This document shows, one piece after another, positions 19,555-25,703 of a stretch of DNA of 64,000 bases. The stretch covers positions 32,400-96,399 of the forward strand of contig JUEP01000004.1 in assembly GCA_000817105.1 (NCBI GenBank), read 5' to 3'. The notes beneath the pieces are model-generated. The model ran no database searches. It was not told where the DNA came from and saw only the letters and a list, made by a program, of their open reading frames with translations. The position numbers and the translations under genes are program-made. Numbering within the stretch: the stretch's first letter is position 1; every line of letters starts with the position of its first letter. The DNA comes from a marine actinobacterium MedAcidi-G3. Its GTDB lineage: Bacteria; Actinomycetota; Acidimicrobiia; Acidimicrobiales; Poriferisodalaceae.

Positions 19555-20523
19555 CTAGAACCTAAGAGGGTTCTCAGCACTCCATGCCAGATGTTCCTCC
19601 GCAAGATTGAATTTCACTTGGCGCCAGGTGAGCTCGATATCGGCATCGTCATCTGATGGATCAACCATTAATTCGAACATCCCATTGTCCGTCTCTTCCC
19701 CTGGGCGCGCTAATAGAGACATAAACGCTTGTGCCATCTCGCTTGGCTCCAGCATTCTTGGTTGCCACCGTCCGAAAACCCGGTCGTTGTCTGCGTACTG
19801 ATCAGTCATTCCTGTGCGGATGAATGGGAACATCAAAGAGAAACTTTGAACTAGATCAGCGCTCCTACCGAGGTTGACTTTCAACACTCTAGGTAGCTGC
19901 AAGACCGCCCAATTACTGATTGCGTAGCCTGGTACTGACTGCCCGGGGTCGATTGCTTGGCGCGATGACACGTATACGAACTGGATTGGTTCGTTGGCGT
20001 GAACGGCCTCGCCCGCCCAGAGATGTGTTGAGGCCAGAAAGCCATCGACTTTTGTATCGAGAACTAAGCGAGACTCGTCCAGATTGTCAAGAAAGTGCTG
20101 CCGGACCCTTGCACGACGAACGGCACTGGGTTCCCCTTCTTCTTCTTTGAGAGCTCGACCAAAGCTATAGCCTGACTCGGTTAACCCCGAATTGCAGATT
20201 ACGAGGTTGGGTGGGAGGCCGCCCATTTGTTCGATGACGTAGCTTCTGGAAGCCCATAGGTCGCGCAGGTTGGTAACGTCCGCTTGGACCGGGAAGGCAT
20301 TAACTCCTTCCGCACGCAGTTGGTTGACAAGATCAAACCCATCTTCATAGCTGCGATGAAAGTGCACGCCAACCGAAGCAGCTCCGTTGAGTCCCGCTGA
20401 TAGGGCGAACGCCTGGCCGATACCTCCGTCTTTGCCTGCGCCGGTGATGAAGACGCGCTTTGCTTCGACCGCCGACCTGTATTGGTCAAAACGGAAAGCA
20501 TCTGTCGGAGCCGTGTAGGTCAT
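19555..20523 (-). CDS. Atypical SDR-family oxidoreductase lacking the YxxxK lysine
   Basis: A 322-residue Rossmann-fold protein from ATG 20523 (MTYTAPTDAFRFDQYRSAV), preceded by TTGGAG. The ORF track start at TTG 20571 is less likely. The nucleotide-binding loop RVFITGAGKDGGIGQAFAL and the serine strand FVYVSSRQAIDPGQ are clear, but the catalytic tyrosine is followed by AISN (GYAISNW), so the lysine of YxxxK is Asn. It resembles the enoyl-ACP-reductase-like end of the SDR superfamily with a long insertion after CNSGLTESG. It is the last gene of the minus-strand run LEH - UGSC - partner - MaoC - SDR. It may still bind NAD(P) but catalysis is uncertain. Confidence 0.75.
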   Translation of the reverse strand: MTYTAPTDAFRFDQYRSAVEAKRVFITGAGKDGGIGQAFALSAGLNGAASVGVHFHRSYEDGFDLVNQLRAEGVNAFPVQADVTNLRDLWASRSYVIEQMGGLPPNLVICNSGLTESGYSFGRALKEEEGEPSAVRRARVRQHFLDNLDESRLVLDTKVDGFLASTHLWAGEAVHANEPIQFVYVSSRQAIDPGQSVPGYAISNWAVLQLPRVLKVNLGRSADLVQSFSLMFPFIRTGMTDQYADNDRVFGRWQPRMLEPSEMAQAFMSLLARPGEETDNGMFELMVDPSDDDADIELTWRQVKFNLAEEHLAWSAENPLRF

Positions 20524-20612
20524 CGCTAACACTCCAAAGTGGGGCAGTGGACTGCTGACGATATCTGCCAAAACTAATAATTCCCTCCAAGTATTTTGTT
20601 AGAGGGTCTTCT

Positions 20613-21086
20613 TTAGCCCGGCTCCTTCCACATGAGGGCATTCCGTCTCATTGTTGCTACCAAGACGTCATTTTGGTTGTGGGATCGATGTTCGAACAAA
20701 ACAATCCCTTGACTTGGCTTGCTAGAAGATTCGCGGGCGGTGATTACTTCAGACTCCACTCGAAGAGTGTCTCCGTGAAAGACTGGGGCAGGGAAATTCA
20801 TTTGTTCGAAGCCCAAGTTGGCAACCGTGGTCCCGTGTGTCGTTTCGTGGACAGATATTCCGACGATAAGAGCAGCGGTGAACATCGAGTTCACTAGAGG
20901 ACGCCCGAACTGAGTCTCCTTTTCTGCGTAGTCAAAATCGAGATGTAGCGCAGCTGGATTCATGGTCATCGTCGTGAACATGATGTTGTCGGTCTCGGTG
21001 ACTGTTCGACGCAGGCGGTGACGTATTACTAATCCAGGAGTTAGTTCTTCGAACCAAAGTCCTCCGTGGGGTCGTTCATCGGTCAA
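20613..21086 (-). CDS. MaoC-like hotdog-fold hydratase
   Basis: A 157-residue MaoC-family protein. [29 protein letters not shown] and the catalytic Asp-His region [24 protein letters not shown] are typical, and [16 protein letters not shown] follows. These proteins hydrate enoyl-CoA type double bonds, with members acting on mesaconyl-CoA or other branched intermediates. The start is TTG 21086 with GGAGAGGA eight bases upstream. It lies 19 bp after the UGSC partner gene on the same strand, so the selenoprotein operon probably works on CoA thioesters or a similar unsaturated substrate (inference). Confidence 0.85.
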
Positions 21087-21105: not shown

Positions 21106-22221
21106 CTAGGTTGTTAAATCGTTCATTCCAGGAATCTCACAGGCCTGATCTAATTCAATGCCTGCGTGGACTACCGCGTTTTGATGAGGGCCGGCACACC
21201 ATGAAGGCATAACCATTGTGTATAGGCCACTCCCACCTGCTTGCAACACCAGTATTCGGTCTGGATCTTTTAACACGTGAATGCGGTCTTCGTCGGCTGC
21301 TTCATCGCTGACGGCTTCGTTGTCGTTCTGCATTGTTTGGGAATAAAACGTTGGGCTAATTCGCCGCATCGTTCCAACGGATATGGTTGCGCGACTTGCA
21401 AGTTCGGCCTGAACGTCTTGGCGGGAAAGGCCAGCGCGCTTAATGACTTCTGTATGGTCAGGGTTCATTATGACGGTGATAGCGCCATTCCTTAAATGAA
21501 CATTGTTGCTACCTGGATTGGCCATCACTAACGCGATCACATCCAGTAAGGCTTCTACCGATGCAGGGTCGTCTCTATCCCCTGTAAAAAATGTTGAGTG
21601 AGGAGCTTCAGCACCGGTGATTATGACTGCACTTTCGTCCGGTTCATAACCGAAGGTGGTGTGCAATCCCGGAAAGGGGCTGTTCTCTTCATCCTCCGCT
21701 ATGCAGTAGGTGAATTTGCCTGGATGCCCGTGCAGTGCCATGTCTGAAGAGCCTGGCCGGGCTCCACCGATATTGATCATCGCGAGCCTCAAGGCACGTC
21801 CGATGGAAGCATTGGCTCGATGGCCAGGCCCCATAGCGCCGAATCCCGAAGCGATTTCGCCACACGCATTTCTCGCAGGGCCGCAGACAATCATCAAGGG
21901 AGCGGTGCAGTGTGTGGTCGCTTGCATTTCGGTGAGATCAAATTCGGGTTGGCAGACTGCTCGAATAGCAGCGACCACAACTGGGATGTGATCGGGTAGA
22001 CACCCTGCCATCACTGCGGCAGTCGCTACCTTTTCGATAGTCGCAGCACCATAAAGCGGCCCCATGACACCAAGCACTAAGTCGGGTTCATATCCGGTTG
22101 AAAGGACCATCCGAGCCACTCGGTCGGCGGTCGGAATGACCACCGGAAGACCATCAGTGCAGCCGAGTTGGTGCAGGCGCTCTAGAGCGTCATGTTCCGA
22201 GGCTGCTTCAAGCAAACTCAT
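21106..22221 (-). CDS. Conserved protein paired with the UGSC selenoprotein (TDGLPVV motif), function unknown
   Basis: I do not recognise an enzymatic family. The likely start is ATG 22221 ([20 protein letters not shown]), 22 bp after the selenoprotein stop. The ORF track start at 22323 would run back into the selenoprotein gene. The 371-residue product carries [20 protein letters not shown] near residue 20, a glycine-rich stretch [20 protein letters not shown], and conserved-looking cysteines ([41 protein letters not shown]). It has no signal peptide or membrane span. The cysteines and position suggest it is a subunit or redox partner of the UGSC protein, which is inference. Confidence 0.7.
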
Positions 22222-22243: not shown

Positions 22244-22774
22244 TTAAGAACTGAGAAATTCGACGATGGATGGGGTGATTTCAGATGCGACTTCGGCCAT
22301 TTTGTCTTCACCGGTCCCGGCAACCGGGTGCGGTAGTTTCACCCTAGGAACCGCCGGCATACCCGAAGAGTTCGCAAAAAAATCACCTTGGGGCCAAAAT
22401 TCTTCTGTAACTAACGCCACAGATGGAATTCCTAGCCGAGCTACTGAAATGCTGTCACGCACGGTGCCAGAAGTGCAGCTGCCTCAATGGCCGTAGGCAG
22501 CAACTACTGCCTGACATTCGGCTTGGATGTCTTCGAGCATCTTGCCACCTACAACTGACGAGGCATCGCCTTTGTCATATCGAACAAATGATGCTGTAGG
22601 AACTGCCTGCGCAAGCGTTTTCTCTACATGATCTAAAAATCGAACGCTGTCAGGAAATCCATTGGCTACAAGCCCAATAGTCAGTGGCTTATTTAAATCA
22701 ACTTTAATTTCGTACGGCTCGGCAACCGCTTTCGGTTGAGCCCGAGGATCGTGAAACTCAGTTGCTGTAATCAT
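22244..22774 (-). CDS. UGSC-family selenoprotein, TGA read as Sec97
   Basis: The ORF track shows two pieces (22484-22774 and 22244-22462). Reading TGA (plus coordinates 22484-22486) as selenocysteine joins them into one 176-residue protein from ATG 22774 with AGGGG upstream. The junction reads QAVVAAYGH-U-GSCTSGTVRDS, so the TGA falls exactly at the U of the U-G-S-C motif after which this family is named. UGSC proteins were described as selenoproteins from ocean metagenomes; other members have Cys there. U-x-x-C suggests a redox centre. The flanking halves are normal alpha/beta sequence (PLTIGLVANGFPDSVRFLDH, IPSVALVTEEFWPQGD). The enzymatic reaction is unknown. Confidence 0.9.
22452..22486 (-). 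promoter_or_regulatory. UGA Sec codon and putative bacterial SECIS hairpin of the UGSC gene
   Basis: On the minus strand, after the UGA, CUGGCAC and GUGACAG pair as two 3-bp helices (CUG/CAG and CAC/GUG) around one G-A mismatch, with the loop CGUGC. The loop begins 21 nt after the UGA and has G as its second base, nearly the same geometry as the peroxiredoxin element (22 nt, loop CGUGAUC). The stem is weaker than in the peroxiredoxin. The identification rests on position, loop and the UGSC context. Confidence 0.65.
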
Positions 22775-22832: not shown

Positions 22833-23222
22833 TTAGCTCTCGTCCTTCAGCTGTCGAAGAAACATTCCGTTATCGAAATAATCTCGCCAGAAGGTAATCA
22901 GACCTTCGTTTACCTCAAATACTCCCATTACAGGAATTTCAATGCTGCGACCGCTCGCCGTATTGAAGCGATCAAGGCGCTCGTTCATAACCGTGTTGCC
23001 GGAGCAGGTCTGGCGCACCACCTCAAATTCCACTGGCCCTTCACCCTTTAATAGACCACTTAAAAATTGCAGCATGTCTTCTTTGCCGTTCATATCGCCT
23101 ATGGGAACGTTGTCGTAATAACAATCATCCGAAACGTGTTCCAATGCGGCATCAAGCTCACGTGACTCGATCTTCGAAATGAATAAATTTACTATGTCTT
23201 CGGGGTTCTCTACATCGCTCAT
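22833..23222 (-). CDS. Limonene-1,2-epoxide hydrolase-like protein
   Basis: A 129-residue protein from ATG 23222 (MSDVENPEDIVNLF); the longer ORF-track start lies in the divergent promoter region. The active-site residues of the limonene epoxide hydrolase family can be matched: Tyr and Asn in DCYYDNVPIG, the Arg-Asp pair in NERLDRFN and the Asp in FWRDYFDNG. Such enzymes add water to an epoxide in one step. The fold is that of the SnoaL/NTF2 superfamily, so an isomerase or cyclase is the alternative, but the intact catalytic set favours the hydrolase. It is the first gene of the minus-strand selenoprotein operon, 58 bp ahead of the UGSC gene. Confidence 0.8.
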   Translation of the reverse strand: MSDVENPEDIVNLFISKIESRELDAALEHVSDDCYYDNVPIGDMNGKEDMLQFLSGLLKGEGPVEFEVVRQTCSGNTVMNERLDRFNTASGRSIEIPVMGVFEVNEGLITFWRDYFDNGMFLRQLKDES

Positions 23223-23279
23223 ATTCGATGATTCTTGCAGGATCTCGTAAACCATGCTCATCCATGGGAGGCTGTGGTC

Positions 23280-24053
23280 ATGCGTTTCCAAGACAAGGTT
23301 GTAGTTGTAACAGGGGCAGCTGGCGGAATCGGACTAGCTGCCGTGCGCCGATTCGCTTCGGAAGGAGCCCGTATTTTGGCAGTAGACCTAGAGGGGTCGA
23401 GTCTGGATGCAGCTGCAGCCGAAGCTCATTCGTTTGGAACTGAAGTGTTTACTCACGCAGCCGATTGCAGTCTCGCTGACGACGTCTCTGGCTATGTTGA
23501 CCGATGCGTACGCGAGTTCGGCCGCTGTGATGTGCTCTTCAACAATGCAGGAATTGAGGGTCTAATCATGAACCTCACTGAGTATCCCGAGGAAGACTTT
23601 GACCGCGTTATCAGCGTAAACCTTCGCGGTGTCTGGCTTGGAATGAAATACGCCGCCCCAGCGATGTTTGCCAGTGGCGGTGGATCCATAGTTAATACCG
23701 CCTCAACTGCGGGGCTCATCGGCGCTCGGGGTCTGTCGGCTTATGTCGCAAGCAAGCATGGAGTCGTCGGGCTGACGAAGTCCGCAGCCCTAGAACTGGT
23801 TCCCCAAGGTGTCAGAGTTAATGCAGTATGCCCATCACCAATTGAGACAAGAATGATGCGAAGCCTTGAAGAGGGATTTGGAGGCGATCAAGCAGAAATG
23901 ATCCGCAAAGACCTAGCCTCTAGAAACCCTATGGGCCGATACGGTGAACCGGAAGAGGTAGCAGCCCTGGTCGCCTTTCTCGCCTCTGACGACGCCAGCT
24001 ATATCAACGGCGGTATATACACCGTCGACGGCGGTTCGACAGGTGGCAGATGA
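23280..24053 (+). CDS. SDR-family oxidoreductase
   Basis: A 257-residue classical short-chain dehydrogenase. The start is ATG 23280 with GGGAGG 8 bases upstream, not the earlier ORF-track start. It has the cofactor loop VVVTGAAGGIGLAAV, NNAG in LFNNAGIEG, the catalytic Ser in IVNTASTAGLIG, YVASKHG (YxxxK) and the C-terminal YINGGIYTVDGG. It reduces a ketone or oxidises an alcohol with NAD(P). It diverges from the LEH gene by 57 bp and its stop overlaps the nitrile hydratase beta start by ATGA, so it belongs to the nitrile hydratase operon. Confidence 0.92.
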   Translation: MRFQDKVVVVTGAAGGIGLAAVRRFASEGARILAVDLEGSSLDAAAAEAHSFGTEVFTHAADCSLADDVSGYVDRCVREFGRCDVLFNNAGIEGLIMNLTEYPEEDFDRVISVNLRGVWLGMKYAAPAMFASGGGSIVNTASTAGLIGARGLSAYVASKHGVVGLTKSAALELVPQGVRVNAVCPSPIETRMMRSLEEGFGGDQAEMIRKDLASRNPMGRYGEPEEVAALVAFLASDDASYINGGIYTVDGGSTGGR

Positions 24054-24763
24054 ATTCAGCACATCGCGTTCATGACATTGGAGGAGTTGAAGGATGGGGA
24101 GCGGTCCCATACGAGCCTGACGAAGAGGTCTTTCATTACGATTGGGAACGCAGAGTTTTTGGTCTCATGTTTCAAGTGCTTTCCGAGACAGCTAAACGGC
24201 CGGGAGAGTTCCGACATGCTCTTGAGAGGTTGGCGCCCGAAGACTATTTCTGTTCCGATGGATACTACGGGCGATGGCGGGCCGCAATGGAAGTGCTCTT
24301 AGACGAATATGGCCATGTCGCTAAAGACGAGCTAGATGACCTTCTAGGAGTTGAGCGAGGAACGGGTCCGGGGCATCGAGTAGCGGGAGTCGCTGAAGTA
24401 GATCCTCAAAACCTGCCACCAGATCGATTGACACCAAAACCAAACCACCGGACCGTAAGACGTGAGCTGGAAGAGGCATCACAATTCGAAGTAGGCGACC
24501 GTGTCATTGCCGTTGGCAACAATGGAATGGGGCACACCCGTCTGCCCGAGTACGTGAGAAATATTCTTGGGACAGTGGTGAAGCTCCACCCGGCAGAAGT
24601 TTTGCCAGATAGCACAGCCCACAATCTTGGTGAACGGCCTCAACATGTTGTGTGTGTCGCCTACCGGGCTAAGGACTTGTGGGGCCAGGACGCTGAAGAA
24701 GATGTAGTCATAAACGTGGACTTGTACGAGAATTACTTGGCGATGGAAACGGAACTCTCATGA
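24050..24763 (+). CDS. nthB: Nitrile hydratase beta subunit
   Basis: A 237-residue beta subunit, with the signature N-terminus RVHDIGGVEGWGAVPY, the helical FRHALERLAPEDYFCSDGYYGRW and the C-terminal SH3-like domain beginning FEVGDRVIAV and continuing RLPEYVRNILGTV. With the alpha subunit it hydrates nitriles to amides. Gene order beta-alpha-activator is that of the cobalt-type enzymes of actinobacteria such as Rhodococcus, which agrees with the alpha-subunit motif. Both ends overlap neighbours by four bases (ATGA), so subunit synthesis is translationally coupled. The middle segment (LLGVERGTGPGHRVAGVAEV) is acidic and variable. Confidence 0.92.
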   Translation: MNSAHRVHDIGGVEGWGAVPYEPDEEVFHYDWERRVFGLMFQVLSETAKRPGEFRHALERLAPEDYFCSDGYYGRWRAAMEVLLDEYGHVAKDELDDLLGVERGTGPGHRVAGVAEVDPQNLPPDRLTPKPNHRTVRRELEEASQFEVGDRVIAVGNNGMGHTRLPEYVRNILGTVVKLHPAEVLPDSTAHNLGERPQHVVCVAYRAKDLWGQDAEEDVVINVDLYENYLAMETELS

Positions 24764-25368
24764 ATAAGCAAGATGATCATCACCACGGAGTTGACCCGAA
24801 CTCACCTGAAGTACGAACAGAAGCACTTGAGGACCTTCTTGTAGAGAAAGGTCTGATCGACAGAGGTCGAGTCGACGCATTAATTGAACGGTTTGAACAT
24901 GATTTGGGGCCCATGATTGGTGCTCGCCTAGTTGCCAAATCTTGGCTTGAGCCACAGTTCCGGAAGAGCCTTCTGGAAAATGCTGATCGAGCCTTAGAAG
25001 AAGAGAACATTAAAGGAGCAGAGATAGAACACGTGGAGGTTAAAGCAAATGAACCGGGCGTCCACAACGTCGTTGTTTGCACTCTTTGCTCCTGCTACCC
25101 CTGGGCTCTTTTGGGACTGCCACCAAGTTGGTATAAAAGCCCAGAATATAGATCGCGAGTAGTGCGCGAACCGCGCAAGGTTTTGCAAGAAATGGGGCTT
25201 TCCCTTGACGCTGAAACAGAAATCCGAGTGTGGGATAGCAGTTCAGAAACAAGGTTCCTCGTCCTACCAGAGCGACCAGAGGGAACTGAACAGCTCGGTC
25301 TCGAAGAGTTAGCCCAGCTTGTCACCAGAGACTCGATGATCGGCGTTGCTAAGGCCAAAGTCTCGTGA
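24760..25368 (+). CDS. nthA: Nitrile hydratase alpha subunit, cobalt type
   Basis: A 202-residue metal-binding subunit. The claw motif VVCTLCSCYPWALLG places the metal ligands at Cys107, Cys110 and Cys112, with Ser111. Threonine after the first Cys (C-T-L-C) marks the low-spin cobalt enzymes, while iron enzymes usually have Ser. Two cysteines are oxidised to sulfinic and sulfenic acid in the mature enzyme (family knowledge). A histidine-rich N-terminus (MNKQDDHHHGVDPN) is visible, as is often seen in this family. It lies between the beta subunit and the activator with 4-base overlaps on both sides. Confidence 0.95.
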   Translation: MNKQDDHHHGVDPNSPEVRTEALEDLLVEKGLIDRGRVDALIERFEHDLGPMIGARLVAKSWLEPQFRKSLLENADRALEEENIKGAEIEHVEVKANEPGVHNVVVCTLCSCYPWALLGLPPSWYKSPEYRSRVVREPRKVLQEMGLSLDAETEIRVWDSSSETRFLVLPERPEGTEQLGLEELAQLVTRDSMIGVAKAKVS

Positions 25369-25703
25369 GTGGTGTCGAAATTTTGGATGGTTCGTTGGCG
25401 GCTCCGCCTCGAACCAACGGAGAGTTACTTTTTGAAGCCCCTTGGCAAAGCAGAGCCTTCGGTGTCGCAGCGGATCTTGTTGAATCAGACTGTTTTAGTT
25501 GGAGTGAGTTTCGAGGTTCCCTCATTGATGCCATACAGACATGGGAAAATCTGGAAACACAGAATCAGCCGCCTTGGGATTATTACGCTTGCTGGGTTGC
25601 AGCATTGGAGCAACTGGTTTTCAGGAAAGTCCTGCTCAAACCGGCCGAGGTAGACCTTCGATCAAGAGAATATGTTGATCGACCGCATGGTCATGACCAC
25701 TGA
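25365..25703 (+). CDS. Nitrile hydratase activator/accessory protein
   Basis: A 112-residue protein starting GTG, overlapping the alpha stop as GTGA. It resembles the beta-subunit N-terminal domain (LFEAPWQSRAFGVAADLVES, then PWDYYACWVAALEQLVFRK), as the small cobalt-type accessory proteins (P14K-type, NthE-like) do. These accessory proteins escort the alpha subunit for cobalt insertion and cysteine oxidation. It ends with the histidine-rich RPHGHDH, which could help metal binding. Position and size support the assignment. Confidence 0.82.
   Translation: MSGVEILDGSLAAPPRTNGELLFEAPWQSRAFGVAADLVESDCFSWSEFRGSLIDAIQTWENLETQNQPPWDYYACWVAALEQLVFRKVLLKPAEVDLRSREYVDRPHGHDH

Follow-up and report, generated by a model that had tools for sequence, protein, structure and literature searches.

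A near-obligate partner of the UGSC selenoprotein and its possible role in a two-component selenol reductase

D-proline reductase combines PrdA, which binds the substrate, with PrdB, whose selenocysteine (Sec) attacks the alpha carbon. The resulting selenide-sulfide is then reduced, a step which in glycine reduction runs via thioredoxin; both GrdE and PrdA form a pyruvoyl group from a cysteine (PMC3091704). For fluoroacetate, cleavage of the C-F bond by way of GrdB/GrdE-like genes has also been proposed (PMC10838667). The UGSC selenoproteins were reported in 2008, in the GOS selenoproteome, to be among the commonest selenoprotein families of ocean and freshwater metagenomes (PMC2398784). They were called likely thioredoxin-like (Trx-like) in that study, which gave no function, fold or partner rule for them, and which noted but did not explain a fusion of UGSC to an undescribed conserved domain, "Unknown_1". 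A protein of this same family is encoded in the window analysed here, i.e. the whole stretch of 64,000 nucleotides taken from a marine Acidimicrobiales genome (G000:C3:32400-96399). The gene following it, referred to as the partner, is the main subject of this work. The features of the locus are presented in Table 1.

Table 1. Features of the UGSC/partner locus. Positions are those of the window; counts out of 109 refer to partner representatives at 80% identity.
Feature	Position	Strand	Evidence or remark
SDR-family oxidoreductase	19555..20571	-	PF00106 E=1e-9
MaoC-like hydratase	20613..21086	-	PF01575 E=2.8e-20; next downstream of partner
Partner gene (main subject)	21106..22221	-	ATG to stop, 371 aa; ORF and homologues
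Partner codon E176	21694..21696	-	E in 108/109 representatives
Partner codon C173 (YCIAE; [10 protein letters not shown])	21703..21705	-	C in 98/109
Partner codon R142 (IGRA)	21796..21798	-	R in 109/109 representatives
Partner codon C74 (AGCLP; AGCLPDHIP)	22000..22002	-	C in 103/109 representatives
Partner codon D23, invariant DGLP motif	22153..22155	-	D in 108/109 representatives
UGSC selenoprotein gene	22244..22774	-	176 aa including one in-frame UGA; PF24696 E=7.1e-40
SECIS-like hairpin CNG-G-CAC-[CGUGC]-GUG-A-CNG	22452..22470	-	short distance 3' of UGA
UGA read as selenocysteine (U97)	22484..22486	-	UGA in 145/148 UGSC genes
Limonene-epoxide-hydrolase (LEH)/SnoaL-like protein	22833..23291	-	PF07858 E=3e-23; upstream of UGSC
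Nitrile hydratase beta, alpha and accessory genes	24050..25703	+	TIGR03888, TIGR01323, TIGR03889 over cut-off

The gene upstream of the partner carries the motif UGSC and scores 137.4 bits against its Pfam model (cut-off 25); against the NCBIfam model NF041046 it reaches 103 bits, which is below the equivalog threshold of 125. Its UGA is a genuine recoding site, since the codon is conserved almost throughout the UGSC genes, since selB and tRNA-Sec are both found over cut-off in the host genome, and since the hairpin downstream of it is conserved. The UGSC genes hold no in-frame UGA besides this one. In the alignment, the hairpin has 98.3% of its cells paired and shows one double change, from C-G to U-A; it is kept from Acidimicrobiia to Gammaproteobacteria; RNAalifold gives the same stem. 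It is visible only by alignment, as single-sequence folding of the region gave no signal (z +1.6). The AF2 model of the protein (pLDDT 95.9), whose best matches are flavodoxin-like FMN proteins, predicts a flavodoxin-like alpha/beta fold in which Sec97 would be located at the N-terminus of the helix that follows strand 3. This model contradicts the Trx-like suggestion in PMC2398784, and a thioredoxin-like fold for UGSC was discarded on that basis.

The relation of UGSC to the reductases introduced above was assessed by profile comparison. In hhalign, the UGSC profile matches the Sec-containing end of GrdB at E=2.4e-5 and PrdB-like proteins at E=1.3e-5, Sec being placed on Sec in both alignments. 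Masking of the CGSC motif left the GrdB match at 7.4e-5, while the PrdB-like one fell to 1.2e-3; for the controls, the reversed profile gave 0.17 and the best of 60 column shuffles 0.015. These values indicate that UGSC is related to the C-terminal, Sec-bearing domain of GrdB/PrdB and exists as a protein on its own; a test for full-length, two-domain GrdB gave no PF07355 match. The host genome also encodes three short PrdB-like proteins, corresponding to the C-terminal part of PF07355 and with the motif PVUPVC where read, L186 (G000:C6:22987-23334, C31:59670-60038 and C3:24714-24911). The last of these lies about 7.5 kb before the window. No PF09338 (GrdE/PrdA) gene was found in the host genome alongside these three, so that PrdA seems dispensable for the marine "PrdB"; of 41 relative genomes searched, 40 likewise lacked GrdE/PrdA. 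The PrdB-like (PVUPVC) selenoproteins occur, as a rule, without the present partner. In a Cellvibrionales MAG, UGSC, the partner and a PrdB-like PVUPLC selenoprotein are encoded in a row (L064:3122-6030).

The partner reading frame is real, and belongs to a large and well conserved family for which there is neither a Pfam nor an NCBIfam model. An earlier note on this DNA, made from the sequence alone, had read the same frame as lying directly after the selenoprotein. This reading holds: all the motifs it quoted are present, and the partner starts 22 nt past the UGSC gene. The note was also right that the product is not a recognised oxidoreductase, since scans against Pfam and NCBIfam returned no family for it or for any of 74 aligned homologues. 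PDB sequence searches with the protein and with the partner profile gave no credible match, nor did a search of a viral structure library give any. As for the reductase subunits, a relation to GrdE/PrdA (PF09338) was considered and rejected (hhalign E of 0.52, and no Pfam match for the 74 members), and so was one to GrdB, with which no profile relation is detectable. The AF2 model has a pLDDT of 94.3; in Foldseek it comes closest to class I fumarate hydratases (E=4.2e-4, TM-score 0.22, rmsd about 17 Å), followed by cyclic amide hydrolases. Despite the high confidence of the prediction, no PDB structure is a convincing relative.

Of the 100 loci found with the partner alone as the query, 95 have a UGSC gene on the same strand, and the five others are either contig ends or Chloroflexota/Bacillota loci. 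The gaps between the two genes are mostly 36-134 nt, and they occur in either order, depending on the clade. Among 397 Actinomycetota genomes, 27 contain both genes, 3 the partner only, 2 UGSC only and 365 neither (Fisher 3e-36, a value inflated by shared ancestry); two of the three partner-only cases are weak fragments, and both UGSC-only cases are below the cut-off. Partners without UGSC nearby were found in Chloroflexota/Bacillota (L089, L091, L093 and L095), and two of the three genomes behind these loci encode UGSC elsewhere. In addition, the two proteins are naturally fused. A fusion was accepted only if its span contained 0 or 1 UGA, read-through frames with 5-31 UGAs being false fusions. 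Single-frame fusions were found with CGSC (L177) and with Sec (L178), as well as three times with Sec in a Bacillota genome (L319, L321 and L322). In three others, from Sporomusa (L288), Vibrio (L293) and the Actinomycetota genome G196 (L254), DMGTS stands in place of UGSC. The association of the partner with UGSC is near-obligate, and the designation as an unknown UGSC partner in the earlier note is strongly supported by adjacency, genome co-occurrence and fusion. The "Unknown_1" domain may be this same protein.

Several loci depart from the simple pair. Haloarchaeal plasmids carry a Cys version of UGSC, often in the arrangement partner-UGSC-partner, and in three of these (L295, L297 and L299) the two partner copies differ, which suggests a heteromer. 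In Haladaptatus (L298), the same operon lacks UGSC and contains a single partner. L253 (G242:C272) shows partner domains in tandem and fused, with no UGSC found nearby. A striking expansion is seen in G048, a genome of the same order, where UGSC is present in ten copies and the partner in nine. The DMGTS fusions of Sporomusa and Vibrio adjoin aconitase X and DUF126 genes.

Besides the conserved residues listed in Table 1, G73 and G114 of the partner are found in all 109 representatives. Of the 76 non-redundant partners, 72 have C74 and 72 have C173, while C105 (THC) is found in 23, C113 (VCG) in 4, C120 (NAC) in 26 and C21 (LGCTDGLP), a position usually occupied by W, in 23. The conserved-looking cysteines to which the earlier note had drawn attention therefore have to be separated: C74 is conserved in the homologues beside UGSC, C105, C113 and C120 are not, nor is C21, and C173, which the note did not name, is. 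The losses of C74 and C173 are mostly single and spread over many lineages. Both residues are retained in the DMGTS fusions, in which neither Sec nor Cys is left in the UGSC domain, and both are missing from pairs in which UGSC keeps its Sec (L255) or Cys (L292). The suggestion that the cysteines bind a metal or form a relay to the Sec is thus mostly unsupported, as three of the quoted motifs are not conserved and the loss pattern of C74 and C173 is contrary to it. In particular, a pair of cysteines lost one by one would fit a metal site poorly.

A dithiol relay through C74 and C173, by which thioredoxin would supply the UGSC Sec with electrons, would agree with the near-invariance of the two residues and with the trxB and trxA genes that neighbour some of the pairs (see below). 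We nevertheless consider it distinctly unlikely: in addition to the mostly single losses, a simple relay is unsupported because Sec-free fusions keep both cysteines and some Sec-bearing pairs lack both. Alternatively, the partner could be catalytic by itself, perhaps as a hydratase or dehydratase built on a fumarase-like core and maybe binding an Fe-S cluster or a metal via C74 and C173, and UGSC would serve it as a repairing or activating accessory. Its best structural matches and the DMGTS fusions, with both cysteines in place and, in Sporomusa and Vibrio, aconitase X next to them, are in favour of this. Class I fumarases, however, have three cluster cysteines, whereas in the partner only C74 and C173 are conserved, each of them lost singly in several lineages. 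Fumarase kinship is moreover unsupported by profile, as hhalign finds no match of the partner to fumarases, and is weak by fold, given the low TM-score and large rmsd, so that a stand-alone enzyme appears unlikely. The cysteines also bear on the possibility that the partner is a self-cleaving subunit which forms a pyruvoyl group from C74 or C173. While this would be analogous to GrdE and PrdA, the partner being likewise the companion of a GrdB-like protein, it is highly improbable, considering that neither cysteine is strictly invariant and that profile similarity to GrdE is lacking. The loss pattern suggests that C74 and C173 contribute to the active site or the fold of the partner itself, rather than to a Sec relay that is obligatory.

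In the clade of the window, the pair is flanked by the MaoC-like hydratase, the SDR-family protein, the LEH/SnoaL-like protein and the divergently transcribed nitrile hydratase operon. The MaoC-like hydratase is a conserved neighbour there and likely shares an operon with the partner; the nitrile hydratase genes are conserved neighbours across the Acidimicrobiia clade. Over the whole family, the neighbours include CoA transferases, CitE-like CoA-ester lyases, MaoC and enoyl-CoA hydratases, along with TRAP/TTT carboxylate transporters, LLM oxidoreductases and LysR regulators. The CoA enzymes, hydratases and TRAP/TTT transporters point to a catabolic pathway for organic acids of small size or for acyl compounds. 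In Arthrobacter and Natrinema, the surroundings of the pair include phosphosulfolactate-synthase-like genes (L294:4674-5462 and L289:4844-5311), a possible hint of organosulfur substrates. Genes of the thioredoxin system adjoin a minority of the loci, and none is found in the window. On an Arthrobacter plasmid, trxB, trxA, the partner and UGSC form one run; in Roseovarius and Variovorax, trxB is near the pair on the same strand, and TrxB-like genes adjoin the Neorhizobium and G377 copies. The pair could also be an antioxidant, peroxide or thiol-disulfide system instead of a catabolic reductase, considering that the majority of orphan selenoproteins carry a redox annotation (PMC13188914) and that GrdB has been connected with a peroxidase activity, judging by a paper cited in PMC3091704. 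This is very unlikely given the surrounding genes, which are those of substrate transporters, CoA enzymes and LysR regulators and not stress genes, and the predicted fold of UGSC, which is not Trx-like.

We propose, with about even chances of being right, that the pair is a selenol reductase of two components, coupled to thioredoxin, whose substrates would be organic acids or acyl compounds bound and activated by the partner. Sec97 of UGSC would attack the activated substrate carbon from its helix N-terminus, Cys100 would resolve the resulting selenoether or selenenyl-sulfide, and thioredoxin and thioredoxin reductase would then reduce the resolved species. These steps are suggested by the mechanism of GrdB/PrdB and by the trxB/trxA neighbours. 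The partner would do the job of GrdE/PrdA by means of an unrelated protein, with the invariant R142, D23 and E176 possibly holding and polarising the carboxylate or acyl substrate. The DMGTS fusions carry neither selenol nor thiol in the UGSC domain, which implies that part of the family acts otherwise or by another route. Somewhat more tentatively, and with chances below even, UGSC and its partner may represent a new class of selenol (or thiol) reductases in aerobic and halophilic microbes, which would split a carbon-heteroatom bond of organic acids and have their substrate activated by a subunit that is no relative of GrdE/PrdA, the two being fused in some lineages and reaching beyond selenium chemistry.

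The function of UGSC, unexplained since its discovery in the 2000s, becomes directly testable through its kinship with the GrdB/PrdB domain, a near-obligate partner that no family model describes, and a short list of invariant residues. Selenol chemistry of the GrdB type, known from anaerobes that ferment amino acids, may be widespread in aerobic marine bacteria, with a Cys form in haloarchaea. Compared with GrdB/PrdB (PF07355), UGSC is homologous to the C-terminal Sec domain, with UxxC in register, and shares with these systems the linked thioredoxin-system genes and the combination of a selenoprotein with a second subunit. It differs from GrdB in being a single domain without the N-terminal one, with a Pfam family of its own, and from both GrdB and PrdB in its distribution, since it is found in marine Acidimicrobiia and in halophilic archaea, where it is Cys-based in the plasmids examined. 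The partner resembles GrdE/PrdA in its proposed role only, as the substrate-activating companion of a GrdB-like selenoprotein; it has no sequence similarity to them and no conserved cleavage cysteine, and since no relation to either GrdE/PrdA or GrdB is detectable, the role is assigned by analogy. The partner family and UGSC would be a new variant on the theme of the two-component selenol reductase.
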